From Nannobrachium achirus (lineage: Eukaryota; Chordata; Actinopteri; Myctophiformes; Myctophidae), in NCBI GenBank assembly GCA_963921795.1, contig OY997640.1, positions 12,209,023 through 12,273,022 on the forward strand: DNA of 64,000 nucleotides, read 5' to 3'. The notes beneath the pieces are model-generated. The model was not told the origin of the DNA and did no database searches. It worked only from the letters and a program-made list of their open reading frames with translations. This document shows, piece by piece, positions 17,929 to 64,000 of the stretch; the stretch's first letter is position 1; each line of letters opens with the position of its first letter. Position numbers and translations under genes: made by a program.

Positions 17929-18219
17929 ACATGGAATCATTAGAGCCCTGTCTGTTCTATGTCTGAATGATGAATTGAGTGAAATAATAATGGACCACAA
18001 TGGAAACAAGAGCCCAAGGGTGTGCCGTCAATTCTATTTAATTTGTTCCTGTCCTCTCTCCATTAACACCATTAACTGATAGAGATTAATTCGTTTTAGT
18101 CCTATTCCTAATCCAATAATTTGATGACAGTCTCCTATTGATCGATGTCCCCTCATCAAATTATCTTATGAATGTGACAAAAATAAATAATTGCGATCGA
18201 AGGTCGCAGTATACTGTAC

Positions 18220-36194: not shown

Positions 36195-39100
36195 GTAACT
36201 AATCCTAAAGTGTTTAAAGTTTGAAAGATCATACCAACAGGAAACCAACATGCACAGATCATAGTGCTGTCAAACATGTCTATGAAAACATTCAACCTGT
36301 ATAACTCTATACAGTATTTAGTGGGGATCTTTTAGCTGCAGTGATGTGCCTGCACAATTGAATTTCACCATCCTAACTTGAAATGGGATTTGTAAGGTTT
36401 TGTACCTTATTTTGGAATTATAAGAAGACCTTTTCTATTGTCCTGATGGCCAATACTCAGCAGAGGCCTGGCAGGTCAACACAGTTGGTCATGCTGGCAA
36501 CGGGTGGCCAGATTGTGGGTGTCAACCCATAGGTGCCAACAGTGTTGGTGCCTATGGGTTGAATCTGGCTCACCCGCTGCTGGCACGGCCAGATGTTGTC
36601 GACCTGCTGGGCCTCTGCCTGCATTTTATTTTGAGTGCCTTTTTGTTCAGGGAGCATAATTTCATTTGTTTTATATCAGCACTGAAGTATTATTGGCTAG
36701 GAGAGAGCACTGTCGCCTGTGCCATAAAGGACACATGTGACGCAATAAATCGGCGGATGATTGGGACCTACATGCCACCGCCAACCGAGGCTGACTGGAA
36801 AGAAATGGCCAACCAGTTCCAAGCTAAATGGAACTTTCCAAATTGCATTGGTGCCATTGACGGCAAACATGTGTACATACAGGCACCCCCCAACTCCGGT
36901 ACCTTATTTTGGAACTATAAGAAGACCTTTTCTATTGTCCTGATGGCCAATACTCAGCAGAGGCCTGGCAGGTCAACACAGTTGGTCATGCTGGCAACGG
37001 GTGGCCAGATTGTGGGTGTCAGCCTATAGGTGCCAACAGTGTTGGTGCCTATGGGTTGAATCTGGCTCACCCGCTGCTGGCACGGCCAGCTGTTGTCGAC
37101 CTGCTGGGCCTGCATTTTATTTTGTTGCGAGTGCCTTATTGTTCAGGGAGCATTTATTTTATATCAGTAGGGAGCATTTATTTTATATCAGCACTGAAGT
37201 ATTGATGTTCAGCTCAGCAGAGGCCCGGCAGGTCAACACCGTTGGTCATGCTGGCAACGGGTGGCCAGATTGTGGGTGTCAGCCTATAGGTGCTAACAGT
37301 GTCGTCTGACACTGTTGGCGCCTATGGGCTGGATCTGGCTTGCCCGCTGCTGGCACGGCCAGCTGTTGTTGACCTGCTGGGTCTCTGCTCCCATTTTATT
37401 TTCTTATGAGCGCCTTAATTGCAATGTTTACAATGTGTGATTGTGGCAGGGGCCTGGTTGGTCGAGACAGTTGGTCATGCTGGCAATGGGTGGCTAGATT
37501 GTGGGTGTCAGTCCCATGGACTGAATCTGGCTCACCCGTTGCTGGCACGGCCAGCTGGTCTTGACCCGCTGGGCCTCGGCCCTCAATGTACCTCAAGATG
37601 CGGTCATACCTGGTGCTGAACAGCTGGGTGCAATGCCCTTCACCATAGTTGGAGATGCTGCATTCCCCCACAAAAGCTACCTCATGAAACCCTATGCTGC
37701 ACGTAGGATGACCTTGGAAAAGCGCATTTTCAATTACAGACTCTCCCGTGCAAGAAATGTAGTTGAAAATGCATTTGGCAGCCTCTCATCCAAGTGGGAG
37801 ATTTTCACAACTACTTCTCCAACCCCTGAGCTGATCTTATTTTTTGTTGTATTTCATTTTTTTTATTTTTATGTTTGACAAAACAATTAAAACTTTTATG
37901 TTACCTTGCAGCGTTGTATTTCTTGGAATTGTATAATTGTGGATATACATAGCCGTGGCATTTTGTCTTGACACACATCGCAAAGCACTTTCTTCTATGT
38001 GTGACAAGAGGCGTCGGGCATGTAACAGGCAATACAACGACTTTATATTAAAATATATAATCTTTATTAATGATAGCAAGATATAAAAATATAGAGTCAA
38101 TAATACGTGTCAACAATAAGATTAAGCACAGTGCAGTAATCACAATTCACAATACAAACAATAATAATAGAGACAAATGGAACTTTACAATAAATCAAAC
38201 TTCGCCCTAACAAACCCCTGTTTCTGATTGGAATAGCACAACTAAAAGCAGTGACCACGGATGATCACCACCTGTAATGGCACAGAAATAAACATAAATA
38301 TAGCTGCAAGCAGCGATAAAGTGGCCAAGGTAGAAAAAGTAGGAAAGCAAAAAAGCATCAAGGGAAAGCAAAGAAGAAATCAAAGAAAAACTGGAAGCAG
38401 TGTTCTTCCGAACAGGTCTCCGGCAGGTCAGGTGTTTTTTTTTGGCCTAGTGGTGACTATAATAGGCCAAAGTCAAAAGGGTACCACGTGTTCTTTGGCC
38501 TTTCACGGCAATCGGACGCTGCATGCGGGATTTGAGGCATTTTGTTCCAAAAATGGGTTTTGCAAAAATTGACCCGCTGGTGGCGCTATAACAGGCCAAT
38601 GTGAGAAGGGTGGCATCTGTTCCTTGGCCTAGTGGGAATGTGCGTGCAAAATCTCACACAAATAGCAGGCTGCGTTTGAGACATTTTGTTCTAAAAGGAG
38701 CAATCCTGCAAACCTTGGAATTCAATGTTAGCCAATTAGATAGAATATGATATTGGACAAATCCATCATGATTACATCACTGTAGAGATACTGTGTGCCC
38801 ATTTGTGTGATTATCGGATAAAATCTGAAGGAGTAATATCGAAGAATGCGTTTTCGGCCTTCTGGTGGCGCTATAAATGACAGACTCTGCCGATTTTACA
38901 CTAATCGGCATAGTTATTGGTGAAAGCACAAATTGACCTCTACACAACATGTATGCAAAAGACTATATGCAACAGACATAAAATAGTTCCAAAGAACTCA
39001 AGGTTTTAACTCAATATCTTTATTTTCCAACTTTTTCATTAGTTGTCTTTGTTGAAGAGTTGGTCATCAGGTTGTAAACCTTCAAAACAGAGGGTTAACA

Positions 39101-45000: not shown

Positions 45001-45203
45001 TTTCCCGCGGTTCGCCTACCACCACTCTGGTAGCAGTCCCAAGAGTGCCATCTACTGGCCTGGAATGGTCAGGACATAAAAATGTCTCTCACCCCACCGC
45101 AGCGCGCCGCATCCAGTTGGGGTTAACGCGCGCCATTTCACGTGCGTCGATGCCGCGACGCGACGCTGCGCAGCCGTTCGCGTCCAGTGTGCGCTCCCCT
45201 TTA

Positions 45204-46430
45204 GACCTTGCATAGTTGTGATGTAAGAACAATGGAAACAGAAAGGTCATGTACATGCGCATGACAAGTGATTAGATAACTAGACAATAGTGTTCCTTCG
45301 AAACAATTGTGGGCTCGCTTCAAGCCAAAAAACAATGGCTATAAAAGTACAAAATGTCAAGATCGCATGCAGTGCTCTCTTTGACGTTACTGACAAAATC
45401 GGACGCTGCATGCATGATTTGAGGCATTTTGTTCCAAAAATGTGTTATGCAAACGTTGACCCGCTGGTGGCGCTATAACAGGCCAATGTGAGAAGGGTGG
45501 CATCTGTTCCTTGACCTAGTGGGAATGTGCTTGTGAAATCTCAAACACATCGCAGGTTGTGTTCATGATTTGAGGTGTTTTTGGCCACTTAATCGTTGCT
45601 TGCAGCTAGATTTATTATTATTAAAATGATTTAAAACAAAATGTGCACTTCATAGCCATGTTAGATAAAGGTCCTTAGATTGCTTAGGTTGTAACCTACA
45701 ACCGGGAAAAGTCTGGTTCTTTGCCACTTTCTGCTATAGTAATTAAAAGAATAGAAGATATGCAAGCTGTGGTATCTCGATAAGAGGAATACTGCCAGGG
45801 GTAGCCAGATAAGTCGCCCTCTTTCAAAGTCGCCCCCAAACTTGTTTCCCGTAGGGAAACGAGTCTGGGGTGACTTTGAAAGAGGGCCACTTTTCTGGTA
45901 TTCCTGCCAGGTAAGCACGCCACCAGGAGGAGGCCGAGAGAGTGGCATGAAGGCAGAGTAAAACCCAGAGGACCCCGCCCCCGCTTAGGCCGCGTCATCA
46001 AGGGCCGCTACGTTCCCACTTACCTTCTCAATCAACCTGAACTGACGACAGCTGTGTACAGTAGGTGCTGTGACAGCTGCGGCTAGGTGGGGCGGGGTAC
46101 AAATATCCTCTGTGAAAAGAAGAAGACTATTTCAGTTTGCCTTTACTGTGAACGTTTTATTTGACATTTGCACTGCTTCTTTTCACTCTGTATGCAATTC
46201 TGTGAATAAATGCGCCTTTTGGCTTGCACCTGCAACTGTGTTGTGTAATGGTTTGGTCCGGTTAAACCTGTATTTGCCACAAAGCTCACTTTGTGCAGCG
46301 CTGCAAACTGCGAAATGTTGAACTAGTGATTTAGAAGGAATAGAATCTGCCTCAGGTCTAAATGGGGTTGTAAAAGCACACGTACTGCTCTGGTGAAGCT
46401 CACAACTTATTTTTTTAGATATGTGTTTGG
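45204..46430. other. Repeats right of the Harbinger element; no gene recognised
   Basis: 45395-45620 is the second copy of the GCTGCAAGCAGCGAT-end repeat. Around 45800-45900 there is a short inverted pair (AGTCGCCCCCAAACTTGTTT / AAACGAGTCTGGGGTGACTT). No coding evidence. Confidence 0.5.
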
Positions 46431-46682
46431 GCTTGTTATGCCTTTATTAATAGGACAGTAGACTGACAGGAACTGAGGAGAGAGATTGGGAGTGCCGAGC
46501 AGCAAAGTTGTTCGGCATCAGGACTCGAACCAGCGACACACTGTCAGGCTACACTGAGCCTATGTGGTATGTCCCTAGACCGGTAGGTCAGCGTGTGCCC
46601 CAAAGATCACAACTTTAACACATCCATCTTGTCACTGTATGTCTGTATGTGTGCAACAGTGCTCAAGTAAAGCACATGATGT
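46430..46682 (-). repeat. tRNA-derived SINE-like repeat, second copy
   Basis: It matches 24320-24490, including the B-box-like GGTTCGAGTCC (minus strand), and extends into TTTATTAATAGGACAGTAGA, a sequence usual beside fish SINE copies. Confidence 0.6.
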
Positions 46683-46779
46683 TTAGATCAGAACAGACAT
46701 GTTAATTTAGAGTTGATACCTTGCCAATTTAAAATCAATTTACAGTTACACATAAGCACAGAAGAATGTTTCCACCATA

Positions 46780-46780
<1 letters not shown>

Positions 46781-46855
<75 letters not shown>

Positions 46856-46890
46856 CCTCAACCTGCAACTCTTTGTATCACACAGACACA

Positions 46891-46965
<75 letters not shown>
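46781..46965. repeat. CT then GT microsatellites
   Basis: CT array at about 46781-46852 and GT array at about 46897-46962. Confidence 0.95.
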
Positions 46966-46970
<5 letters not shown>

Positions 46971-47189
46971 CCACAGCTGGCTCTTGCCATGACAAACATT
47001 GGGGAGAGGAGATTGGGCAAAAAGAGTAACACAAGAATGTTTATTAGAGAACTCCTATCCACACTCACATCTATGCTGGACACCTCCACCATTATAAGAA
47101 CGCCCTCTCCATCCTCACCATCTCCCAATGTTTTATTGTTTTTATTTTTTTCAAATTTCCCAAAGAATTATTAAAAATACAGGTATAAA

Positions 47190-47440
47190 AATAAAAAATA
47201 TATCTGCAAGCAGCGATAACGTGGCCAAGCGGGGAAAAGCAGGAATGCCAAAAAGCAGCAAGGCCAAGGGGGGGGGGGGGGGGGGGGGACAGGAAAAGCA
47301 GGAAAAGTGTAAAAATAAATCAAAGAAAAATCTAGAAGCAGTGCTCTTCCGAGGTCACATCCTCCCCCCACACAACGCATGCACGTCCTGTTGCATGTTA
47401 AACTACATGGATTTACTATTATCCATTGGGTCATGGAGGG
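47190..47440. repeat. Piece of GCAAGCAGCGAT repeat with poly-G run
   Basis: TATCTGCAAGCAGCGATAAC resembles the start of the 38280 repeat. A G run lies at about 47270-47288. Confidence 0.6.
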
Positions 47441-47778
47441 GGGCCCAAACTAGCAGAAACAGCAGATCTACAAGCTCTCAACGCATTGCTATCCGAAAAG
47501 TTGGGAGGTGATATCACAGGTGACATCACCAGTGGCGAAAACTCAGGTCCCCAGGTACGGGGGTCCGATTTGGACCGGCCCAGCCCACAACGGCCCACTT
47601 CGGTCTCATTCGCGGCCGCCATAGGCGGCCGCCGAAAAATCGGATCGGGTCGGGTTGGATCGGCCGAAAATTCGGTTCGGTTTGGGTTTCTGTGTGCATT
47701 TCCAGGTCGGTTCTGGTGTGTAATAATGAGTTAGCACACAGCGCAGCATGTACATACGTGCACACTACACACAGACAG

Positions 47779-47779
<1 letters not shown>

Positions 47780-47842
<63 letters not shown>
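47780..47842. repeat. CA microsatellite
   Basis: About 30 CA units. Confidence 0.95.
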
Positions 47843-48023
47843 ACACACACACTACCAGGACAGTGTTAAACTTAATATCACCAACAGTGTGTGTTGGTCA
47901 GCCTCACACACCACAGACACATGACACATGTTCAAAACCAGACGGAAATAACTGACCACTGCATAACTCACATCAAGTTCAAATTCACACGCAAAGACCA
48001 TGCAGCCAAAACTAAAGCACTAT

Positions 48024-49046
48024 CATTGTAATAGGGCTGTCTTCGACACAGGATTTATGAAGTCGATTCGAGTCGCGGGGGTTAATCCGACGCGTCGACG
48101 AATCGTTTTATAGTCTACTTTGTGTAAAAAAAAAGAAAAAAAAGTGTTGCTTTAAACCACGTCAACATAATAGAATAATACATTAAGAGATGAATTGAAT
48201 ACACAGTGTTTTCGGTGATATCGGTGCGCGAGCACAAATGTTATCTGCATAGCAGTGTACAACCATAGAGTTATAACACACCGTTAAAACAAATAAAACA
48301 TCTCCGCTGTTTCAACTCTGCCCAGTCTCTCTGCAGCGTGCAGTAGAGATGAGACATTCGCGAACGATTCCGCTCTCTTAAATGAACGTTGGGATCCAGT
48401 CCGCAGTCGCGGGACACAGAGCACTGACAGAGTAATGAGTCAGTGTCGAGAACGGATTCATTTCAGAAAAGGATCATAAAAAGGTGGAGGCACAGCTCCC
48501 GCTTGAGCCAGAAGTGTGGACATGTCATGGACGCAAACACAGCGAAACACAATCATTCATCATGGATTACAACACTGGAACAATTAAGAAGCACTTTAAT
48601 TAGAAAATGTAACTTGTAGCCTACACTTGTGTATGTTAATTTGACTTTGAAGATTGTTTACTACTTCGTGGACACGCGTTTGTGCTGTGGCAGGTTATTT
48701 AATATGGGATTTTGACAGCGTGCTTCCTCCTCTTAACGGAACACTGTCCCGGCTCTGAATGTTTTAACGAAGCGGCGGTCTGAACCGTTCTGCCCGTTCC
48801 GTCTCACTTTCAACCCGACGCTGGTGCGAGACAATAAATAACTGTTCGCCAATTGCTACTTCTCATTGGAAGTATACATGACACCACACCAGTCCAGCAG
48901 TGCACCGCAGTACTGGCAGTATTAGGCTAACTGGTGATATAAAAAAATATATATTTTCGCTTCGACTCAAACAATTGGCGTCGATTCCCGGGGCTTAAAA
49001 CGATGCGTCGATTCGTCGATTTTTAGAAGACACCCCTACATTGTAA
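48024..49046. mobile_element. hAT-type element, 1.0 kb, perfect 8-bp duplication
   Basis: CATTGTAA lies at 48024-48031 and 49039-49046. The ends TAGGGCTGTCTTCGACAC and GAAGACACCCCTA are inverted, and inner CGACGAATCGTTTTA / AAAACGATGCGTCG also pair. No transposase reading frame was recognised, so it is a non-autonomous derivative. Confidence 0.85.
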
Positions 49047-49049
49047 CAC

Positions 49050-50700
49050 AACGCACACACCAACACAGTGCTGGCACTGTGCGTAAAGACGCACAGTGGA
49101 GAGCTGCTTAGACATGCCCAAGTGGTGCCCAACAAATTGACCAAAGGCACAATGCAATTAGAATAGAATAATAAACTACTTGTTTATATCCTACCTTATT
49201 GAATGAGCATTGAATGAGCATCCGTCGCATAGGTGATGATCATCATCATCACCTATTCCTTCTTGGGCCGCGGCCGTTCCAAAGTTGTTCCGGGCGGCCG
49301 AGCTTCTAGTAATAATAATGCACTGAATGCAATGTCTGATAGCTCCACTTCCCCGACAATAGGTGCTTGGCTGTGGGTAGTCCATCCGATTTAGACAGCA
49401 CTACTGGCCGGTAGCGACGCCTCCTCGTCCTCGCTGACAAAATAATTATTTTCAGTACAGTAGGCTGCTGCTGGGCTGCATCTGCCTCCAGATATTTTCG
49501 TTTTTTATCTCTTACTTTCTCCGCAATTTGCACGCACGGTTGAACCATAGAGTATATGGGGTTGAACACTGACTGGTCCCATCTTCTATTAACGTAAATC
49601 CCGACACCATTTTTTGAACGGGTTACGTTGACGTACGGAGCAAACCACTTGAGCAGGGGGAATGGAGTCTCTACCTAACCTCCCTCTACCAGTCACAATC
49701 ACTTCACCACCCCCCCTTAATAACAATGTATAATGGACCGGGCCGGCCCAGTTGTCTCTATTGCTCTATTAGGGCCGATGGGTGGTGAGACTGGTCACTG
49801 GTGACTGCGTGTCGGCCAGACCGGTTGTGCGCACATATCGTCCGCGTGGTCCTAGTGCCGGCCCCATTTGAGGCTTTTTTCCTCTCCTTTTTGGATTTCA
49901 GCGTCTCGGCAGCCCAACTGGTGGTCCGCGGCCCACGGGGGACAAAACGTACGTGTCCCCGGCCGTTTTTACGCCGCTGGACATCACCTATGTAAAAGTC
50001 CATATATGGGTATTCCCCAGAATCCCTTTTATGCCCATATATATAGTGAAAGTTACAGGTAAGCTGAATGCGATATGAAACGTAAGCTTACCATAATCAC
50101 AGTAATCCTTAATCATTTTCAATCATATTCAAGGGCTTTTGGAGAAATGAGACAGACACAGAGCCCTGCAGAGGGGAGGTGATTGTGTCAGACTCTGTGT
50201 CCAGCTGGCAGCTGATGCCAATAAGTAGTAACGGCCCCTTGTTAATGGATCAAAGGAAGGCAATTATGTTTCTCTGCACTGTCAACTAGCTGCTACAGAT
50301 GCATACTTTTCAAGCAGACTGGTTAATTGGTTCTTAACTTATTTAGTTTCAACTTTAAAAATGGCCAATGTTTTACCAGTTTTTATATAGTTTGTTGATT
50401 ATTTTTGATGCTGTAATGGTCTATTTTATTTTATTTTTTTAGGTATTAAACAGGTTTTAAAAGTCCTTAAATCGTGACTTCACTGCAAAATTTCAAAGGC
50501 CACACCAAAGGTCCGCTGCACAATGCTTGAGAAACACTGCACTAGTAGGCCTATATCTGAATTGTCGCTGGAGTAGCAGGAACGCCGCCGTCGCCACCCG
50601 CAATGTTGTGGCCCTCGGCTTGGTACCCTAGACATAATTCGGCCCTTGGCGAAGTGATAGAATGAATAGATTTTTTTTTTCTTAATGCCTTGCCAAAAGA
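49050..50700. other. No gene recognised; lone hAT end near 50790
   Basis: Short frames on both strands show no family motif. GATCGGATCGGG-type repeats at 50697-50785 end GGGGCATCCCTA, the end of a common fish hAT family, but its other end was not found here. Confidence 0.45.
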
Positions 50701-50919
50701 TCGGATCGGGAAAGATCGGGATCGAATCGGAAGCAAAAATATTTTATCGGGATCGGGAGCAAAAAAACGTGATCGGGGCATCCCTAGTATATATCACTGG
50801 CCAGATGGCCAAGACATGGCCCATATCTGTGTGGCTGGTTCAGATAGGGATGTCCATGTATGTGCATAAAATATATTGTATGTTGTGATGTCATTGGAAC
50901 CACTCTAACAGAATCCCTT

Positions 50920-51160
50920 TTATGCCCATATATGGAGATCCCTGATGTCATCAATATTAAGCCCATATCTAACAGGACTTCATATGGGAATGCCCATATA
51001 TGGAGGAAGAGAGCCCATATATGTGTGGCTGGTTCAGACAAGGATCTCCATGTGACCATGTATGGGCATAAAAGGGATGTAGGCCACTATACAGTGCATG
51101 AATCTCCATATATGGGTACCAGGGGTCTCCATATATGGGTAACTGGTCCGATATACATCA
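50920..51160. repeat. CCCATATATGGAGATCC units, second site
   Basis: CTTTTATGCCCATATATGGA, GATCCCTGATGTCATCAATA and TTAAGCCCATATCT match the array at 19864-20520, about 31 kb away. Inverted copies follow. Confidence 0.75.
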
Positions 51161-51482
51161 CTGGCCAGATGGCCAAGAATTGGCACAAGGTCGCATGTCG
51201 CCCTGAGTCGTCTTACTAGTTTATATCAGGTTCCACGTGTTGGTGGTGACATCACCGAGAACGCTGCTCCCTCATTGGCTAAAGGCCCTGCCTTTGTATT
51301 GTCAGGCAGAAACAGACAGCTGGAAACAGTCCACAACAAACACAGTAGCCTACTTGCTCGCTCTGCTGGCACAGATAATAAAAAGAAAGAATGGAGAAGA
51401 AAGGGTTAGGGTTAGGGGGGAGAAAGTGAAGGGTTAGGGTTTGGGTGAAATATCCCTTTAAACTGGTTGTTTGTTCTTCTAG

Positions 51483-51722
51483 GGTGATTCAGGCGGTCCT
51501 CTGATGTGTGAACAGGATGGGACTCATTACATCGCAGGTCTGGTGAGCTGGGGTCCTCAGTGTGTTCAGAGTGACAAGCCTGGTGTCTACACCAATGTCC
51601 ACAAATATGTGGCCTGGATTCATGAAAAAATGTCTAACGTTGATGTTGATTACTCTTATGATGATATCACTGATAATGTTGACGCTGATTACTCTTATTA
51701 TGATAATGTCACTTATTATTGA
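51483..51722 (+). pseudogene. Last exon of a trypsin-like serine protease (orphan)
   Basis: After the acceptor TTGTTCTTCTAG the frame reads [20 protein letters not shown], then [20 protein letters not shown] and [10 protein letters not shown]. This is the last exon of an S1-family protease: the active-site serine (GDSGGP), the S1-pocket SWG strand and the C-terminal helix. An unusual acidic, tyrosine-rich tail of about 29 residues ([15 protein letters not shown]...) follows before the stop. The exon is itself uninterrupted. No histidine (AAHC) or aspartate (DIAL) exon was recognised upstream. The DNA directly before it is MITE and tandem repeat, so it is either a cut-off remnant or the end of a gene with distant exons. 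Confidence 0.75.
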
Positions 51723-51891
51723 GCACATGTTGTAAGACAGGTTAAAGATTGTAAGACTGTTTGTAAGGCAAATTTAAATACCCACACCGGCCAAATCATG
51801 ATTTTTGAAAATATGTTTTGGGAGCTTTTCTCTGAAAATCGTATTTGTCACTCAGCATTGCATGGCCTTCATTGGCCCGCCCCTGTGATAG

Positions 51892-52231
51892 CAGGTTTGA
51901 CGGGAGAGTGTTGTTTGCAGGTCTTTCAGTCTGAGTGTATCAAAAAAGCAACTGGGTTAGCCGGAAGCTTGTGATTGGCTGCACGGAGGTACCGAAAGTC
52001 GGGGGGAAGGAGATACACCTAAACCTAACCCTAACCTCAGTAAAACTAACACTAGTGAATGCTAACCTGGTAAATGCTAACCTGCCGACGCTGGTGAATG
52101 CTAACCTGCCGACGCTGGTGAATGCTAACCTGGTGAATGTTAACCTGGTTGGACCAACGGTGCTTAACCCGGTTGCTTTTTGATACACTCGGACTGAAAG
52201 ACCTGCAAAAAACACTCTCCCCAGGTTTGAC
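51892..52231. mobile_element. Mutator-like MITE, 320 bp, 10-bp target duplication, telomere-like core
   Basis: CAGGTTTGAC at 51892-51901 is repeated exactly at 52222-52231. The ends are inverted for about 55 bp: GGGAGAGTGTTGTTTGCAGG and, on the minus strand, GGGAGAGTGTTTTTTGCAGG. The core has CCTAAACCTAACCCTAACC and a tandem GGTGAATGCTAACCTGCCGA unit. A 9-10 bp duplication points to Mutator-like elements. The core resembles those at 15209-15953 and 16500-17520. Confidence 0.82.
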
Positions 52232-52299
52232 ACACATTCATGATGTCATCCTGTCACAGCCAGGGACAGGCCAATCACGTCCAGAAAGAGCTTAGTCCC

Positions 52300-53800
52300 T
52301 TCCCATCTCACATGTTTATGCATGCATGAAGTCAGCCTCTGATTGGGCAAAATACCAGGAAGAAATCAGGATCAGGAAGTAAACGACACACAGAACCACA
52401 CTGTTTGCTGCTGTTATTTTTCAATAAGTTTGCACAGAACACAATTACATTTATTCTATCACTGCCGCCCTACATCGTACAATTATATCAAAACTAGGTT
52501 ACAATTTTTACAATGCAATTCCATTCATAACTTCATTCATTCAAGTCTAATGATAATAAACATAGCCCACATTAAAAAAGTAGGCTATAGGCCTATTCAA
52601 AATGTTGAGCCCTGATAAGGCATAATTAGTCTAATGTTGCAATTGGGGGTTCTAAATGTTGATAACAGGGCAGGGATGTGGTATATTAAATGAGGGTACG
52701 GGCAAAGTTTAGGATCCCATAAGTTCATTTGTTTTGTTTGTTTTTTTTTTCCTGGAGGCTGCCACCTTGTGGGTCAAAAGTGCTAGTCCAAAAACACAGA
52801 TACAATTACATCATAGAATCAACCCCTCCTCTTTTACCATTCACCCAACTCTGTGGGTGTGGCTAACAGTTCGTCCATGACCGTATGCAAACGCTTCATG
52901 ACCCTCTTTTGGGCCGTGATCCACCACATGAGAAACCCTGGTCAAATGTTAGGTGAATGGTGGATGGTTTTGACCTGCTCTACTGTATGTGTAAGAAAAC
53001 TATTTTGATCCGGCTTTATATCAATAAAATTGACTTGATTGACAATTTATGCAATGGAAACCCTTTTTTAATTATAGTATAGTTCCGCCTTTCTTACAAG
53101 GTAAACTTGTGAGGTTTTACTTGATCACTAATCAAACCAAAAACCAATGACTAGAGTCATTTTATTCCCCATCAGTGAAGAAAGAGTATGATGGGGGTCC
53201 CCCATGGGGGTCCCCCATCAGGTCAAAAGTGTCATTATCGCATTGTCTGAAAGTTCAGTATTCCAAGTTGACTTGAATAAAAGTGCCAAAGTACTGGCAT
53301 CAACATGTACAAAAAAGCAGCCTACCAAAATTAAAAGTAGGCTATACTCATTAGGCAGAATGCCTCATTTCACAAGTTCAAAATGTAAGCATACAGACAG
53401 ATAGAGTCAGACACAGTACAGTCAAAACAACACTCAGTCTAAAATGAACACACCATTAAAGTCATAGCGCTCTTGTTTCCATTGGGGTCCTATAGGTATT
53501 CAGTTCATCAACATATAGGCCTTCCATGATAAAGATAAAGATATCTTTTTAAAAATCCTTCTCACTCGTGGTAAAGTCCACAGTACACCACAACGAAAAC
53601 ACAGACATAATTGATGTGAACAGATCATTATAGCAATCTTTATCGAGCCCGGTGGGAATGAAGCTTAAAGTAGCATCAAAAACATTCATAAGGATGCTAG
53701 GGTTCAAGTGGTAAAAACAAAAGAAGAGAAAATAACTCCTATTAAATTAAACAAAGATGTGTCTCCCGCATGTGAAACTAACTAAACAATCAGCTAAAAC
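52300..53800. other. No gene recognised
   Basis: No family motif, tRNA-like box or clear element end was recognised. GGGGGTCCCCCATGGGGGTC near 53192 is a short palindromic run. Confidence 0.45.
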
Positions 53801-53822
53801 AGGACATGTCCAAAAACTCTCA

Positions 53823-53823
<1 letters not shown>

Positions 53824-53916
<93 letters not shown>

Positions 53917-54016
53917 GGCATCTTCTCGGCTGAGGAAAAACAACAAAATGTGACCATAAGAGATGAATAGTAACACACTGCTTTATTGAGCAAAAATAGC
54001 GCATGTGTGTGTGTGT

Positions 54017-54062
<46 letters not shown>
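53824..54062. repeat. CA and GT microsatellites flanking a 90-bp spacer
   Basis: CA array at about 53824-53912 and GT array at about 54004-54060. The right array runs into TTGTCTAGCTATACCTATGG and GGGGACAAA blocks, a common fish repeat tied to GT arrays. Confidence 0.9.
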
Positions 54063-54063
<1 letters not shown>

Positions 54064-55160
54064 TCTAGCTATACCTATGGGGACCAACCGCATGTTCACA
54101 CAGTCACGCGCAGGGGACGTCTGACACAGTGGGGACAAAATCGTAGGTCCCCATAGTTATTATCATTCAGGAAGATAGGGGAGAGGTTGCTGAAGTGTCT
54201 GGTTGTTTTTTTTAAGCAAGTCCCTCAATTCGCGTTTTCATGTCATATGACAGGTGTGTTAACACAGTGGGGACAGCCCCCATCAGACGATAGTTGGTAC
54301 TGCAGTTTGTGTGTGAGTGTGTGAGAGAATGGGAGAATGAGAGCTTCACACACTACTAGCCAATCACAGGTCAGATATTTGCATACAATGACGTTGGCTT
54401 CAAGTCAGCACATATGGTGGACTTTCTTTCAAGGACTTTCAAAGACCCTCTAAACTGGTAAGCAATGTGGTTATTAATATTATTTACGGTTGTGTCCGTA
54501 TATATACATGTAAAAAAAACACCGGGCTTGTAGAACAGCTATTTTTGCCGACATTTGGCGGCTGTAGCTCTGTATATATACATGTAAAAATAATAATATC
54601 ATAATAAATAATATACATTTGGCGGCTGTAGCTCGAGGGAATGTTTTAGAGTCTCGGGGTTTGCATTTTTGGTTTCAGCAGCTAATTTCCATTCCAATCA
54701 TATGCTGCATGTCAATAGAAACTACCTATTGAAGCTAAAAGAAGCCATGAAAAACAGCTTGTTACACCACAATTGACGGCCGTTAGCTTAGCGGCTAACG
54801 CCGTTAGCTTAGCGGCTAATGCTAGCGCTGCAGGCTAACAGAGGCAATGTATACACATCTGGAATAAAACGCGACCCAACTCTATTTTTGCTCTATCTAT
54901 CTATGATTGCCAAACATCTACAAGCTCACAGTGCGAGGCGGTTAAGTGTAGATTGTGTAACTTTAGTCAGAAGGATAATCTGACCCTGATAATATACCAC
55001 AAACACATGATGTTACAGTTAGCTAAGCTCGGGGAACCCATTTCAATAGGGCACGCATTCTGGTGTTGCGCACGTATATAGAAGCGCAAGCAACGTGTAC
55101 TAGACGAAAACGGTGCCCTATAGAACTGTGTATCAGTAGCCTACTGCACTACTCTGTTAC
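54063..55160. other. Repeat remnants; no gene recognised
   Basis: Half-hairpins of the AGATCTACAAGC family lie at about 54522-54545 and 54912-54938. A direct repeat of CATTTGGCGGCTGTAGCTC occurs at 54552 and 54617. A CCGTTAGCTTAGCGGCTAA direct repeat lies near 54780-54825. Confidence 0.5.
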
Positions 55161-55330
55161 AAGTAGAATTGATTGATTGATTGAAGACTTTATTAGAAGT
55201 TTGCATAGGAAAAGGTACAGTTTCATGACGGTACAGTTCACTGGTACAAGGTCTACTAAAAGGAGATCCATGAAAAGACTAAGCTTATTTCCACTGGAAA
55301 CCATTTAAGTATCTCATATAACATTGAATG
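55160..55330 (-). mobile_element. LINE 3' tail remnant
   Basis: Minus-strand sequence ending AATAAAGTCTTCAATCAATC is the usual 3' terminus of fish LINEs with ATTGATT-type tails. Only the tail is present. Confidence 0.45.
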
Positions 55331-55522
55331 ACAGACGAATAGAACACAGTACTATGCAGTAGATATGTAAATAAAATAAGAAGTATGTGAGCTATTCAAA
55401 TGTATGTTTTCTAGGCCTAAATCAAAATCTACAAAGCAATAACTAAAGTTTTGAAATAAATGTAGGCCTAGTGGAGTATAGGGTGACCATATTCTGAAAA
55501 CCCAAAAAGAGGACACACTACC

Positions 55523-55526
<4 letters not shown>

Positions 55527-55592
<66 letters not shown>

Positions 55593-55599
55593 AATTTTG

Positions 55600-55648
<49 letters not shown>
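55527..55648. repeat. Two AT microsatellites
   Basis: AT arrays at about 55527-55588 and 55600-55648 are separated by GCGCAATTTTGC, itself a near palindrome. Confidence 0.95.
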
Positions 55649-55649
<1 letters not shown>

Positions 55650-56240
55650 CAAAATATTTTGTTCCAGGGACCCCCAGAAGCAAAGATTAGATTTCAGTCT
55701 ATTCTGCATCTAGGTTAAGGCCACAGACCCTTTGGGAAACGAGTTTGGGTCGACTTTGTTTGGCCTTAAGCTAGATGCAGAAAAGACAAAAATCTAATCT
55801 TTACTTCTGGGGGTCCCTGGAACTAAATATTTTGCGATGGGGGTCCGTGGCCAAATACATATCATTCTGGGGGTCCTTGACATGACAGAGTTTGAAAAAC
55901 AATGATAGCAACATAAGTTTTTTCAGGAAAACTGTTAGGATTTAGAAGACATTTGTAGAATGTGCCTATCAGTGGTTAAGGACCCCCAAAATGTTGTTTT
56001 TGGCCGCGGACCCCCATCTCAAAATATTTTGTTCCACGGATGGACCCCTATTGCAAAATATTTTGTTCCAGGGACACCCAGAAGCAAAGATTAGATTTCG
56101 GTCTATTCTGCATCTAGCTTAAGGCCACAGACCCGTTGGGAAACGAGTTTGGGTTGACTTTGTTTTAGGTCGACCTTTCATGTATTCCCCTCAAGTAGTC
56201 CTGAGGTCCCCAGACCCCACTTTGGGAACCATTGCCATAT
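55650..56240. repeat. GGACCCCC-type hAT MITE pieces, inverted pairs
   Basis: CAGGGACCCCCAGAAGCAAA, CATCTAGNTTAAGGCCACAG and GGGTCCCTGGAACTAAATAT blocks recur in both orientations (55655-55745, 55740-55870, 55980-56150). They are relatives of the MITE at 30296-30560. Confidence 0.6.
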
Positions 56241-56266
56241 GGGGATAATGTTAGCCCGACTCCAAC

Positions 56267-56480
56267 AAGCTAAAAGCAATTGGTTTAAGCAATTGGTTTT
56301 CATTAGAGATGGTAGTCCTTGCATGGATGATTGTTACTGGTTATTCTTGTATGTTATTTGCAAATAACTTGAATACATTTGATTAGGTGGCAGATAATAA
56401 ACATGGGAACATCTGCAAGGAAACAAGTTTCTCCAGAGACCTCTTCAGGGTGTTTCCGCTTGTGATGCAAATAAGAGGTA
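56267..56480 (+). pseudogene. Duplicated, decayed promoter/first exon of the KMT5A-like gene
   Basis: From AAGCTAAAAGCAATTGG through GTTATTTGCAAATAACTTG and GGTGGCAGATAATAAACATG this copies 57618-57780. The first-exon copy reads MGTSARKQVSPET-like where the working copy reads MGRTARRRVSPET, then loses similarity after about 13 codons. It is a broken duplicate of the gene's start, with no later exons. Confidence 0.7.
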
Positions 56481-56713
56481 CAGACAAAAATTGCTGCCCC
56501 AAACCCTGTGGAATGCACACCCCAAATGCTCTCATTCCACAGTGTTTATTGATTTTATATTTGTTTTCTCATGCCACCCATGTAATATACATTTGAGTAT
56601 GTACTCATAGACTACCTGCATTGTTCACTTACAGAGTTAAGGGGGTCATTGCAAATAATACATTTGAGAACCACTACTAGTTGGACTCCTCCTGTTATGC
56701 TATAGCTATAGTG

Positions 56714-57135
56714 TCGTACATCAGGGGTTCCCAAACTTTTTTGTCTCAGGGCACCCCGTGAATATTTTTTTAAAATCCGAGGCACCCCTACATTATAATT
56801 TTCACTCCCAGCACCTCATATTTATTGCATATCGTTGTTGTCGGGTGGAACCCTTGTATGTTCAAAACCGTTCATTTTATATTTATCATCTATAAAATGT
56901 ACTAAACTAGTGAAAACAGCAGATCTACAAGCACACAACGCCTCGCGATGCGAGACTGAAAATAACTGTGTACTTCAAGTTTAAAATGATACTAAATATT
57001 TTTTCAAGTGTCCAAATAAATTCCAAATATTATCAAATGATCTCGCGGCACCCCTGGACTGCCGTCGCGGCACCCCAGGGTGCTCCGTCACCCCAGGGTG
57101 CTCCGTCACCCACTTTGAAAACCCCTGTCATACAT
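56714..57135. mobile_element. hAT-type MITE, CAGGGGTTCCCAAACTTTTT family, copy 1
   Basis: TCGTACAT (56714-56721) and TCATACAT (57128-57135) match at seven of eight bases. The ends are CAGGGGTTCCCAAAC and TTTGAAAACCCCTG. It has half of a GTGAAAACAGC-type hairpin at about 56910-56947. Confidence 0.85.
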
Positions 57136-57329
57136 ATTCTGAAAAAACCTGTAGACTTGACATTCAGTAATGGGGTCTTACTTGAAGGCTATATGTATTT
57201 AGGCACTCATTTGAATAGGAAATGTACGTAGGCCTATATAAATATAGATTTTACTGTCATGTTTGAGGGTCAAGAGTGGCTGTCCCTCTCGGTAGTAAGT
57301 CTCTACTGGTCCTGCCTAGCTCCCCCTGC

Positions 57330-57640
57330 CCCGGTAGAAAAAAGAGGAGAAGACTGATGTCAGAAAGGGAGCAAATTAGACCCTGGAAACTACCGCCCTA
57401 TTTCTATACTAAGTTCCATCTCGAAGGTGATGGAAAGAATAGTCTATGAACAGGTTGAAAAGTATATTGCCAGGAAAAAAATATATATATACAAATTCCA
57501 GTCTGGCTTCAGAACATTCCACTCGACTGACACATGCCTCCTCTATTTGAGTCGACCACATCAAGCACGAGGTGGATGCTGGCAAGACACTGTGAACCAC
57601 TCCATACTGGTTAACAAGCTAAAAGCAATTGGTTTTCATT
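57330..57640 (+). mobile_element. LINE reverse transcriptase fragment
   Basis: Translation gives NYRPISILSSISKVMERIVY, then FQSGFRTFHSTDTCLLYL and DTVNHSILVNKLKAIGF. These are conserved reverse transcriptase blocks 2-4 of a jockey/L2-like non-LTR element, with the stretch between TDTCLLYL and DTVNHS damaged. It lies just upstream of the KMT5A-like first exon. The end of the same LINE precedes the decayed duplicate at 56267. Confidence 0.75.
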
Positions 57641-57738
57641 ATGGACGGTATACCTTGCATGGGTGATTGTTACTCGTTATTCTTGTATGTTATTTGCAAA
57701 TAACTTGAATACATTTGATTAGGTGGCAGATAATAAAC

Positions 57739-60700
57739 ATGGGAAGAACTGCAAGGAGACGAGTTTCTCCAGAGACAGATGCTCTAAATTACATCAAGTC
57801 TGGAACTGACAAACCTGGACTTCGGTTCATCAGTACATACAAAGGTGAGCAATTTATAGAACATGTTTGATGCTGCTGTTCAACTAATGCAGAGAACTCA
57901 GCGCTTTGGCGTCCACTATAGCAGGGGTTCCCAAACTTTTTTGTCTCAGGGCACCCCATAAATATAAATACATTATAACTTTCACTCCCAGCACCTTATA
58001 TTTATAGCATATCATCGTTGTCGGGTGGAAACCTTGTATGTCCAAAACCGTTCGTTTTGTATTTATAATCTATAAAATGTACTAAACTAGTGAAAACAGC
58101 AGATCTACAAGCACACAACGCCTCGCGTCGCGAGGTGTTGTAGATCGGCTGTTTTCACTAGTTTTGTGCGACAGTCTTGTATGATGAAGCAGGGCTTTGC
58201 TTTACCAAAAGAAAAAATTACTTTGTACTTCAAGTTTAAAATGTTACTAAATATTTTTTCAAGTGTCCAAATAAATTCCAAATCTTATCAAATTGTCTCG
58301 CGGCACCCCTGGACTGCCGTCGCGGCACCCCAGGGTGCCCCGTCACCCACTTTGAAAACCCCTGCACTATAGGCCACTCATGTTATTTATAGACTGCAGG
58401 GCTCTACTTCCCCACATATTAGAGTATCAGACTATTCACGTTACCTTGGTATGAGTCAAATTAAGCCCTATAGGCAAGATTTCAAATTACCTCTACCTTG
58501 AATTGTTTGCAAAAACAATTAACCAAATGTTTTATACTAGTTCATGACGTGTTTATTTATTTTTCCCCAAAAGGGCGAGGCGTTTTTGCTACCAAAGACA
58601 TTTCTAAAGGAGAGTTTGTGGTGGAGTATCGTGGTGAACTTATAACACAAGCTGAGTCTCATGCCAGGAAACTGTCCAAGGCAGCCTCTGTATTCCTGTT
58701 TGATTTGCAGTGGAATGGAAAGTATTGGTGGTAAGTTATTATTAAAATATATTTTTATGCCAAGTAGTTGTTTGCTGACCTTATTCATTAAGGTACTTTC
58801 AGATGGGCATCAATTAACACAGGTCTGTTCCAGGTCTGCTCATGAGGGCCGCTACAAAATAAAAACTAAACACAATCCAGGTCTAGTCAGTCACAACTGC
58901 TTTATTGCACCTCGACTTCTCTGCATGTGCTACTATTAGGCGTGTTAATCACTGCCCATCTGAAAGGTGCTTTACTGTTCCCCAAAATGTAGGGCTGCCA
59001 TGACTACATTTAATGCTAAAGACCTGAATTGTTTTTCTATTCCTACATTTTTAGTGTTGATGCGTCTAAAGAGGATAATTCACTTGGGAGGCTTGTGAAT
59101 GACGAGCACCGGACTCCCAACTGTAAATTGAGAGTCATTGCCCTAGAGGGAAAACCTCACCTCTGTCTGTTTGCTGCGAGAGACATCTTACCAGGTGAAG
59201 AATTGAACTACAACTACGGAAAATCGAACTGGCCATGGCGGACTAAGGTGAGGACACATACTTAAACATTTATGCCTGACTTGCATATGTAGGTTCAAAG
59301 TGAGATGTAGTCTAATGTCAACAGAATAGAGCCCTGCACGGGCCTAAAATGTGGGCCCGGGCCCGGCCCTGGCCCGTGGACTTCAGTCCAGGCCCGGCCC
59401 GTGGCCCGTTTGGTGCCGCTATTTAAAGCCCGAGCCCGGCCCGAAGCCCGTCGCCTTATTATTAATTAATTATTTGTGTGCGTGGCTTTCACTGCTGTGC
59501 GCTGCAGCTGCACTCTCAAGGGGAGTCCATACTGTCACAGCCCACCGAAATTTGCGTCGGAAAGGTCCAGTTCAACTACAAAATGACATCTCTTGCAACT
59601 TCTGAAAAGGATTACTCATAATTTGAGTTCGGAAAGCTGCACGCACGTCAGAAAGTCGAAACTTTCCGACGAAAACTATGGTCGGAGAGGACGGAGACTG
59701 AGAGACGTGTACAGCCCTCTATACTATAGCTGTGCTCGTCTTGCGCTCTGATTAAAAGAAAGAAGTCAACACAACACAACAGCACAGCAAGTAATTACAC
59801 ACACATCATTCACAACGCAAGAAATCTTCCTCCACCCACCATTTGTTATGTTACTGTATATCTTCACTGCAATTAGATATTGATATTATTGTCGGCTTGC
59901 CGCCCGTGGTTTCAAGCCATCGTAAAATACAGAGTATCGTCCAGTACTAAAGAGTAAAGACGCACGCACGCATCCCGTAACTGATACGGGACTCGGGAGG
60001 TCGGGGAATCATTACAGGGCGATTTATTTGAGAAATGACGGTGAAATGGGTGAAACTACAGTAGTGCTCCTAATGTTATAGTCTCGCTGTGTATGTACAC
60101 GCAGAGTCGCAGAGTAGACTTGTGTGCCCGTCGCCCTCGGCTCGTTGCGGCTCTCCCGGCTCTCCATTGGCTAATGTACTCATGTCACGACCAATCAAGA
60201 GCCGTGTTGCTATAGATACGGATAGAGCCCATAGCCTAGAAGGCTATTAGCCTAGAAGGCTATGGGAGGCAGGCAGGCTGAGGCAGCACTCACTCACGCA
60301 CACACACCACACTCCATTCTAAGCGCACACACAGAGACGTCATGTGTGAAATTCACAGCGCGAAATGTTCCGAGCATGGTTCTGAGCCCGGGCCTAGGCC
60401 CGTTGGTGAGTTTCTAAACGAGCCCGAGCCCGGCCCGTTTTGGCGGGCCGGGCCGGGCCCTGGTCGGGTCCCGTCGGGCTTGCAGGGCTCTACAACAGAA
60501 GCAGGTTGTAGTAAGGACATGAAAATTAAATACAAATCCTTGTTGTTCTCAGACAGTCACGTTTGTGATGAGAGGACAGCAACACAGCATGCACTTGCAC
60601 CCCAGATGTACTACCGACATGTTATGCATACCTCTTATCTTATCCATATTCAATTACTTATTCTTCACAGACGTTGAATGACATGTGTGCAGCAGGTGAT

Positions 60701-63277
60701 GGCGACTGCCCCACAGACACGCATGGCTCCATCACAGCACCACGGCAAGATCCAGTCACTGCCAAGACGTCCACTTCCGTTGAAAAGGTAAATGTGGAGA
60801 GCACACCTTACAAATGATTTTTAGTTTATTTTCATTTCCTAATGTCTAGTGTATCACTTTAAATGTAGGCCTCACGGGGTCCCCAAGACACATGTTTTTA
60901 GGTGTGTGTGTGTGTGTTATGCAAGGTTGTAGCCAGAATAATTCAATCTTCAGAAGTCATGTATGTCCCCATGATGCACATTGACACTGGGTCCCCAAAA
61001 CCCATGTTTTTAAAATGTGTGTGTGTGTGTATTTAAGCAAGTATGTTCCAGGAGAACTGAAATTTCAGAAGACGTGTCCCCATGATGCACATTACCACAG
61101 GGTCCCCAAAACTGATGTGTGTGTGTGTGTGTATGTGTGTGTAAGTTTACGGAATGCATCAATTATCTGATCCATTTTAAGGCTATTCATTTTAGAGAAG
61201 CGTTGTCCACACTGATCACATCCCTAGACTTTCTCTCCAGTGTTGTCTTATGGCTATGTAGGTATTGTAAAGTGCATTTTGGTTGTTGATTATAATCTAC
61301 TGTACCAGTGAGAACATTATCTGATCTCACATCTGATTGTTTATCTTCTATTTGCTTAAATGGGGATTTCATAATAAGGTGTACTTTTAAAAAGTACTCA
61401 TAGACCACATACTCATAGACCGCACACCAAATGTGTTTGAAATACCTACTGTCCAACTAGCCTGGGCAGCATTCAGTTTCAGGTTTGTTATCAGGTCGGA
61501 AGCGGATGATATCGCTACATCATGTTGTAGTGTCGTTGTGTAGTCAGACAGACAGGAACATTCCTTCCATACTTACTTCCTTCCTCCTTTCCCCCATTGT
61601 ATCGATTGAATGTTCCGGTCTGTCTGACTACAAAACAATACTACAACATGACGTAGCAATATCATCCACTCCAGACCGGGTCACACAGCGATTTTGACAT
61701 GCCTACCTTTTGACTTTTAAATATTTAATGAATCTTATTCTTCACAGACGTTGAATGACGTGTGTGCAGCAGGTGATGGCGACTGCCCCACAGACACAGA
61801 CACGCATGGCTCCATCACAGCACCACGGCAAGATCCAGTCACTGCCAAGACGATCACTTCCGTTGAAAAGGTAAATGTGGAGAGCACACCTTACAATGAT
61901 TTTTAGTTTAGTTTCATTTCGATTGAATGTTCCGGTCTGTCTGACTACAAAACAATACTACAACATGACGTAGCAATATCATCCACTCCAGACTGGGTCA
62001 CACGGTGATTTTGACATGCCTACCTTTTGACTTTTAAATATTTAATGAATCTTATTCTTCACAGACGTTGAATGACGTGTGTGCAGCAGGTGATGGCGAC
62101 TGCCCCACAGACACAGACACGCATGGCTCCATCACAGCACCACGGCAAGATCCAGTCACTGCCAAGACGATCACTTCCGTTGAAAAGGTAAATGTGGAGA
62201 GCACACCTTACAATGATTTTTAGTTTATTTCATTTCCTAATGTCTAGTGTATCACTTTAAAGGGTAGGCCTCAAGGGGTCCCCAAGACACATGTTTTTAG
62301 GTGTGTGTGTTATGCAAGGTTGTAGCCAGAATAATTCAATCTTCAGAAGTCATGTATGTCCCCATGATGCACATTGACACTGGGTCCCCAAAACCCATGT
62401 TTTTAAAATGTGTGTGTGTGTGTGTGTGTGTGTATTTAAGCAAGTATGTTCCAGAAGAACTGAAATTTCAGAAGACGTGTCCCCATGATGCACATTACCA
62501 CAGGGTCCCCAAAACTGATGTGTGTGTGTGTGTGTGTGTATGTGTGTGTAAGTTTACGGAATGCATCAATTATCTGATCCATTTCAAGGCTATTCATTTT
62601 AGAGAAGCGTTGTCCACACTGATCACATCCCTAGACTTTCTCTCCAGTGTTGTCTTATGGCTATGTAGGTATTGTAAAGTGCATTTTGGTTGTTGATTAT
62701 AATCTACTGTACCAGTGAGAACATTATCTGATCTCACATCTGATTGTTTATCTTATATTTGCTTAAATGGGGATTTCATAATAAGGTTTACATTTAAAAA
62801 GTACTCATAGACCACATACTCATAGACCGCACACCAAATGTGTTTGAAATACCTACTGTCCAACTAGCCTGGGCAGCATTCAGTTTCAGGTTTGTTATCA
62901 GGTCGGAAGCGGATGATATCGCTACATCATGTTGTAGTGTCGTTGTGTAGTCAGACAGACAGGAACATTCCTTCCATACTTCCTTCCTTCCTCCTTTCCC
63001 CCATTGTATCGATTGAATGTTCCGGTCTGTCTGACTACAAAACAATACTACAACATGACGTAGCAATATCATCCACTCCAGACCGGGTCACACAGCGATT
63101 TTGACATGCCTACCTTTTGACTTTTAAATATTTAATGAATCTTATTCTTCACAGACGTTGAATGACGTGTGTGCAGCAGGTGATGGCGACTGCCCCACAG
63201 ACACAGACACGCATGGCTCCATCACAGCACCACGGCAAGATCCAGTCACTGCCAAGACGATCACTTCCGTTGAAAAG
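57739..63277 (+). CDS. KMT5A-like SET-domain lysine methyltransferase with repeated 3' exon (runs off window)
   Basis: Exons: 57739-57844, 58574-58730, 59055-59247, then 60671-60787, 61748-61870, 62065-62187 and 63155-63277, all with AG/GT borders and agreeing phases. The first three give 152 residues: MGRTARRRVSPETDALNYIK, GRGVFATKDISKGEFVVEYR (SET-I), WNGKYWWCVDASKEDNSLGR, then LVNDEHRTPNCKL and PGEELNYNYG, ending WPWRTK. This is the fish-expanded branch of KMT5A/SETD8, the enzymes that put one methyl group on histone H4 lysine 20. NDE replaces the usual NHS and YNYG the usual YDYG. The NDE change is common in the fish branch as I know it. Whether it methylates H4K20 is unknown. After the SET domain come at least four copies of a 39-41 residue exon. 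The stop codon is beyond the window. Start choice: the ATG in AAACATGGG, supported by the decayed duplicate. Confidence 0.82.
57914..58372. mobile_element. hAT-type MITE, CAGGGGTTCCCAAACTTTTT family, copy 2, in intron 1 of the SET gene
   Basis: CACTATAG at 57914-57921 is repeated exactly at 58365-58372. The ends are CAGGGGTTCCCAAAC and TTTGAAAACCCCTG. A nearly full GTGAAAACAGC-type hairpin lies at 58091-58164 (centre CGCCTCGCGTCGCGAGG), in the same place as in copy 1. Confidence 0.9.
59319..60500. mobile_element. hAT-type element, 1.17 kb, in intron 3 of the SET gene
   Basis: CAACAGAA at 59319-59326 is repeated exactly at 60493-60500. The ends TAGAGCCCTGCACGGGCC and GGGCTTGCAGGGCTCTA are inverted, with subterminal GGCCCGGGCCC-rich repeats. 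No transposase was recognised. It is non-autonomous and probably young, given its exact duplication. Confidence 0.9.
60671..60787 (+). CDS. Repeat exon copy 1 (39 codons)
   Basis: Starts TLNDMCAAGDGDCPTDTHG and ends TAKTSTSVEK/gtaaatg. It differs from later copies by missing one TD pair and by two substitutions (M for V, S for I). Phase 0 at both ends. Confidence 0.8.
61493..61682. repeat. Foldback inside the exon-array intron
   Basis: GATATCGCTACATCATGTTG and GTCAGACAGACAGGAACATT on the left pair with their complements on the right around a CTTCCTCCTTTCCCCC centre. It recurs at about 62905-63090, its right arm alone at 61921-62000, and its start again at the window edge (63985). The break of the short unit falls at the foldback centre. 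Confidence 0.8.
61748..61870 (+). CDS. Repeat exon copy 2 (41 codons)
   Basis: TLNDVCAAGDGDCPTDTDTH through TAKTITSVEK. Phase 0 at both ends. It belongs to the shortened unit. Confidence 0.8.
62065..62187 (+). CDS. Repeat exon copy 3 (41 codons)
   Basis: It looks the same as copies 2 and 4 at the protein level. Phase 0 at both ends. Confidence 0.8.
63155..63277 (+). CDS. Repeat exon copy 4 (41 codons)
   Basis: It looks the same as copies 2 and 3. The following intron repeats up to the window edge. Confidence 0.8.
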
Positions 63278-64000
63278 GTAAATGTGGAGAGCACACCTTA
63301 CAATGATTTTTAGTTTATTTTCATTTCCTAATGTCTAGTATATCACTTTAAAGGGTAGGCCTCACAGGGTCCCCAAGACACATGTTTTTAGGTGTGTGTG
63401 TGTTATGCAAGGTTGTAGCTGGAATAATTCAATCTTCAGAAGTCATGTATGTCCCCATGATGCACATTGACACTGGGTCCCCAAAACCCATGTTTTTAAG
63501 ATGTGTGTGTGTGTGTGTGTGTGTGTGTATTTAAGCAAGTATGTTCCAGAAGAACTGAAATTTCATAAGACGTGTCCCCATGATGCACATTACCACAGGG
63601 TCCCCAAAACTGATGTGTGTGTGTGTGTGTGTGTTTACCTAATGCATCAATTATCTGATCCATTTTAAGGTTATTCATTCTAGAGAAGCGTTGTCCACAC
63701 TTATCACATCCCTAGACTTTCTCTCCAGTGTTGTCTTATGGCTATGTAGGTATTGTAAAGTGCATTTTGGTTGTTAAGTATAATCTACTGTACCAGTGAG
63801 AACATTATCTGATCTCACATCTGATTGTTTATCTTCTATTTGCTTAAATGGGGATTTCATAATAAGGTGTACATTTAAAAAGTACTCATAGACCACATAC
63901 TCATAGACCGCACACCAAATGTGTTTGAAATACCTACTGTCCAACTAGCCTGGGCAGCATTCCGTTTCAGGTTTGTTATCAGTTCAGAAGCGGATGATAT

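Follow-up and report, generated by a model that had tools for sequence, protein, structure and literature searches.

At least four head-to-tail copies of a candidate exon occupy the last 3.3 kb of the 64,000-base stretch of DNA analysed here (the window), and the array crosses the window end at position 64000. We think it probable that this is an intragenic tandem array, in which a symmetric (phase 0–0) coding exon is repeated together with its downstream intron inside a KMT5A-like SET gene. From the type of gene and the repeats, the host is probably a teleost. The array is likely to be a coding exon array of the kind known from human LPA kringle IV-2 (KIV-2), in that its units stand in tandem and each holds a frame-keeping exon, although the exon itself is a prediction. 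The parts of the array are as follows.

60671–60787, plus strand: exon copy 1, 117 nt, 39 codons, TLNDMCAAGDGDCPTDTHGSITAPRQDPVTAKTSTSVEK
60788–61747, plus strand: unit 1 intron
60877, 60989 and 61100: starts of the GGGTCCCCAA sub-repeats of unit 1
61486–61685, no strand assigned: inverted repeat in the unit 1 intron, arms 61486–61572 and 61599–61685 (87 bases, 83% complementary)
61748–61870, plus strand: exon copy 2, 123 nt, 41 codons, TLNDVCAAGDGDCPTDTDTHGSITAPRQDPVTAKTITSVEK
61871–62064, plus strand: unit 2 intron, shortened to 194 nt, about 770 bp missing
62065–62187, plus strand: exon copy 3, 123 nt, 41 codons, equal to copy 2
62188–63154, plus strand: unit 3 intron
62276, 62382 and 62503: starts of the GGGTCCCCAA sub-repeats of unit 3
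63155–63277, plus strand: exon copy 4, 123 nt, 41 codons, equal to copy 2
63278–64000, plus strand: unit 4 intron, cut at the window edge
63367, 63475 and 63598: starts of the GGGTCCCCAA sub-repeats of unit 4

Every copy has a length divisible by three, an open frame, phase 0–0 and AG/GT borders, with TTCTTCACAG just before it and GTAAAT just after it. Copies 2–4 do not differ from one another at any of 123 DNA positions, and their acceptors and donors are likewise identical. Copy 1 differs from them by three substitutions in 117 sites and by one 6-base indel. A sequence-only reading of this DNA had proposed at least four intact, open phase 0–0 copies, with copies 2–4 identical in protein, two cysteines per unit and an array running beyond the window. 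All of this stands: four copies were located, the identity of copies 2–4 extends to their DNA, the translated copies each contain two cysteines and the unit 4 intron is truncated at 64000. No further copy of the exon was found elsewhere in the window by tblastn (next match, E 0.69).

The repeat unit consists of the exon and the intron that follows it, and measures about 1.08 kb. Measured from one unit start to the next, units 1–3 are 1077, 317 and 1090 bases long, and unit 4 has a length of at least 846 bases. Unit 3 aligns to the other units with 95.5–99.4% identity over 146 to 1098 bases (blastn), far beyond chance. The deletion in unit 2 took the left arm of the inverted repeat and ends a few bases inside the sequence that matches the right arm in unit 1; its join shows two shared bases (TC), as judged by eye. 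Other intron indels between units are of 1 base outside the TG tracts, save one 10-base indel at a tract edge. Units 1, 3 and 4 each contain three sub-repeats, 106–123 bases apart, that begin with GGGTCCCCAA and run into TG microsatellites.

Upstream of the array lie two exons that encode a SET domain.

58574–58730, plus strand: SET exon, first half of the domain; Pfam SET 1e-8 (58573–58728); AG before, GTAAGT after
59055–59247, plus strand: SET exon, second half, (C)VDASKEDN...NWPWRTK; Pfam SET 7.3e-10 (59056–59247); phase 0 end

The first begins inside the Gly codon of GRGVFATK and ends with the TG of a Cys codon. Over both exons the Pfam SET match reaches E 6.1e-19, and a phmmer search of the PDB with the domain returned KMT5A as the best match (E 2.5e-25), which confirms the earlier assignment to a KMT5A-like gene. 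Among the best 60 of 107 matches, the top 14 rows are all KMT5A/SETD8/SET8 (E 2.5e-25 to 3e-24), and the next match follows at 4.1e-16. Prokaryote genomes yielded 92 pattern stretches, of which 2 were confirmed as relatives, and viral contigs yielded 7, of which none was. The two relatives are loci in metagenome-assembled genomes (Kaiserbacteria and Verrucomicrobiales) and match query residues 1–108, which is the SET part and not the tail. A PPO1_DWL match of the SET piece 59056–59247 (E 0.021) was under its cut-off and was ignored.

The domain retains Arg295 and Asn298 of KMT5A, which belong to the LGRLxN motif, as well as Tyr334 and Tyr336, the two tyrosines of YxYG. In the phmmer alignment, H299 is replaced by Asp (INH vs VND) and D338 by Lys (YDYGD vs YNYGK), with residue numbers counted by hand from chain 7d1z_K (range 227–338). 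We take H299 to be part of the Asn-His motif and a catalytic/SAM-binding residue of KMT5A. Because these two KMT5A-type catalytic/SAM-binding residues are absent, we do not call the gene a KMT5A, despite the sequence relation. Judging from the residues, the methyltransferase activity of the domain has probably been lost or changed; loss is only likely, because D338 is not kept in all other SET families. The D338A mutant of KMT5A is described as catalytically inactive in the available part of one report (PMC10739863). A search for the missing 5′ exon with a KMT5A flank as the query gave a best E of 2.7 outside the SET exon. A weak splice candidate at about 54171–54253 was unconvincing, and a PHD-like WYCSLC at 54295 was dropped when a pattern scan showed no C..C pairs nearby.

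When the SET exons and the four copies are joined, the frame is open for 279 residues, the first base of the initial Gly codon being supplied by the adjoining intron. On a crude splice-site scale, the acceptors score 3.7 (copy 1) and 2.4 (copies 2–4) and the donor scores 4.0 in all copies; the first SET exon scores 3.1 for its acceptor and 5.6 for its donor, and the second scores 2.8 and 7.5. As a control we scored both strands of positions 1–58000, with true exons left in. Open phase 0–0 stretches of 60–200 nt that score at least as high as copy 2 number 6 in these 116 kb, or about 0.06 per 1.1 kb. Five of the 12 candidates on the plus strand reach this score and 1 of the 14 on the minus strand; the plus strand alone gives about 0.09 per 1.1 kb. 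Copies 2–4 count once in this estimate because they are identical. We regard an exon-like score by chance alone as unlikely.

The second SET exon ends in phase 0 at a high-scoring donor, and the copies beyond it are in phase 0–0 on the same strand. This speaks against the principal alternative, which we judge unlikely, that the SET gene ends at 59265 and is followed by a non-coding 1.08-kb tandem repeat whose open AG/GT stretch is a pseudo-exon. If that donor is left unused, the open SET frame closes after five more codons at a stop (59263–59265), which could be the end of the gene, and pseudo-exons of equal score, at the frequency given above, are not especially rare. The make-up of the intron—microsatellites, three sub-repeats per long unit and an inverted repeat—is also what a non-coding repeat might show. 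The three substitutions of copy 1 fall in two codons and both changes alter the amino acid (M/V and S/I), so that purifying selection on the protein is not in evidence; such a pattern favours a pseudo-exon. Exons 2–4 have nevertheless remained unchanged while their introns differ by up to 2.9%, although the contrast does not reach significance (Fisher p 0.058 for units 3 and 4, and 0.11 for units 1 and 3). The exon indel measures 6 bases, against mostly 1-base intron indels outside the TG tracts, but this argument is weak because the indel sits in a short ACAGAC repeat. KMT5A-like genes with sequence behind the SET domain are known (PMC10368294, available part), and coding sequence after SET is to be expected here because the KMT5A-like genes of Hydractinia and sea urchin mostly have an N-terminal SET. 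Taken as predicted exons, the copies are quite likely to be real ones.

The exon and intron parts of the units differ in their history. Between introns we counted 8 differences in 952 positions for units 1 and 3, 20 in 710 for units 1 and 4 and 21 in 718 for units 3 and 4; for the shortened unit 2 the counts are 4 in 194 (with unit 1), 3 in 193 (unit 3) and 1 in 50 (unit 4). In the 707 columns common to units 1, 3 and 4, private changes number 17 in unit 4, 4 in unit 3 and 3 in unit 1. The excess in unit 4 gives two-sided binomial p values of 0.007 and 0.003, in which neighbouring changes may not be independent. Copy 1 had been proposed as the oldest copy; this is upheld for the exon alone, but for whole units the intron outlier is unit 4. 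As the exon outlier and the intron outlier are thus different units, the units look like mosaics produced by unequal exchange or conversion.

The flank upstream of copy 1 (−64 to −15) is related to the corresponding flank of copy 2, with 31 of 45 aligned bases in agreement. Two of 5000 dinucleotide shuffles scored this high, and none of 462 acceptor-like sites in positions 1–58000 did (highest 38.5 vs 44). The acceptor flank of copy 1 has diverged much further than either the exon or the intron behind the exon. The simplest history of the units would begin with an old duplication of the exon together with its acceptor flank, after which the exon and its following intron would have been multiplied and homogenised recently, by unequal crossing-over or gene conversion. 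Each unit gained or lost would make the tail behind SET 41 residues longer or shorter, and would leave the frame intact because the exon is symmetric.

The symmetric phase would permit any number of copies to be spliced in, and copies 2–4 share identical acceptors and donors. Inclusion in varying number, or singly, rather than of all copies is compatible with a coding exon array; we rate it as rather doubtful, and identical copies would give diversity in length alone. Least probable is an assembly effect, such as two alleles placed in tandem, by which false duplicate units would make the real copy number smaller: the 0.8 to 2.9% seen between introns is within reach of allelic divergence in an outbred fish, but unit 2 alone bears a large deletion, exon 1 has changes that the other copies lack and the stretch ahead of the array (58501 to 60620) is not repeated, so no simple allele pair explains the layout.

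A Pfam search with the repeated exon gave nothing at E up to 10, in agreement with the earlier statement that no domain could be recognised. Against solved structures, also at E up to 10, the exon gave a single match (E 0.9), which we took as chance. On a charge–hydropathy plot the exon unit falls just on the disordered side (0.439 vs 0.448). AlphaFold2 returned a mean pLDDT of 57 for the tail unit, without secondary structure, as a single-sequence model of a type that often turns out poor. These predictions suggest that the tail behind SET is probably disordered.

A more far-reaching proposal, which we hold to be fairly improbable as a whole, is that the gene encodes a KMT5A-like binding protein of an expanded family that is devoid of the catalytic residues, with a tail of 41-residue, two-cysteine repeats that varies between individuals through unequal exchange of the symmetric exon. 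If the copies are spliced in, the window would hold a clear instance of an exon array that has grown recently, in a chromatin-enzyme type of gene. The introns would then carry sufficient markers for tracing exchange among the units, and the array would lend itself naturally to testing whether tail length varies within a population. The array leaves knowledge of how such arrays arise unchanged. Within-gene repeats of this kind are known, for example from human LPA.

The closest parallel is the LPA KIV-2 coding variable-number tandem repeat (VNTR), which similarly consists of near-identical tandem units of exon and intron in one gene. According to the available text of one source, the edge of the KIV-2 array has a partly related intron flank, as here, the first 200 bases of intron next to the exons being about 70% homologous (PMC11201333). 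In what could be consulted of another, the KIV-2 unit, like the present one, holds a short tandem repeat, and unit number varies from 1 to 40 per allele (PMC11462820); the comparison made here is of one sequence. The LPA unit differs in having two exons per 5.6 kb and a kringle domain, whereas the present unit has one exon per about 1.08 kb and a fold that was not recognised. NEB, DMBT1, FLG, SPDYE3 and UBC are treated beside LPA as protein-coding VNTRs (PMC11201333, available part); these are other genes with other units, and we liken them by description, not by sequence. Dscam of Drosophila and Daphnia also has tandem duplicated exons in one gene, but these number dozens and are mutually exclusive, whereas copies 2–4 here are identical (PMC3236188, partial text).

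With respect to the SET domain, the gene here fits the expanded KMT5A-like genes better than KMT5A proper. KMT5A/SETD8, the H4K20 monomethyltransferase, shares the SET domain, but the gene here has predicted sequence beyond the C-flank of SET: the joined frame runs into the array, or would end at the stop behind the donor if unspliced. The accessible portion of one study places SET at the C-terminus in KMT5A of other species, and reports that Hydractinia has up to 65 annotated genes similar to KMT5A and the sea urchin 61 (PMC10368294). In Hydractinia only one KMT5A-like gene has the usual C-terminal SET, and in most others SET is N-terminal; the longer KMT5A-like genes of Hydractinia and sea urchin are also alike in their C-terminal ends (PMC10368294, same portion). 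These expanded genes (Hydractinia, Hydra and sea urchin) combine a KMT5A-type, mostly N-terminal SET with strong growth in gene copies; they differ in being whole genes, with other domains in the longer ones and, in the text available, no tandem exon array, and are likened here by description (PMC10368294).

In fish, setd8a and setd8b are named in zebrafish (PMC2200798, available part). For the hairtail Lepturacanthus savala, a table of gene families that have expanded or contracted assigns KMT5AA and KMT5A to lysine degradation, which the text gives as one of the pathways of the expanded families (PMC10298005, available part). Among the literature matches listed, no title or abstract start dealt with this array or with a fish KMT5A-like tail, and the phrase ‘N-lysine methyltransferase KMT5A-A-like’ was not found in the literature searched.

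An inserted element sits in the intron between the SET exons and the array (59248–60670).

59327–60492, no strand assigned: inserted element, 1166 bases, inverted ends beginning TAGAGCCCTGCA, 8-base target duplication CAACAGAA

The CAACAGAA duplication lies at 59319–59326 and 60493–60500, and the insertion looks like a non-autonomous element of the hAT type. Its 10-base end recurs at 17941, 26768 and 58397. Shortly upstream of the SET exon, 56287–57127 and 57623–58364 are direct copies, 92–95% alike in pieces and 1180–1336 bases apart. In the same region, a weak RVT_1 match at 57370–57546 (E 0.00075; 19.7 bits vs a cut-off of 29.6) marks a LINE-type fragment. No Pfam domain beyond Trypsin, SET and this weak RVT_1 match was found in three frames each of 44001–54000 (plus strand) and 54001–64000 (plus and minus strands). 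The Trypsin match (3.7e-11) belongs to the final portion of a trypsin-like serine protease at 51480–51620 on the plus strand, with a GDSGGPL motif. Farther upstream, at 36424–37875, open stretches resemble a Harbinger-type transposase (CIGAIDGKHV), as judged by eye.
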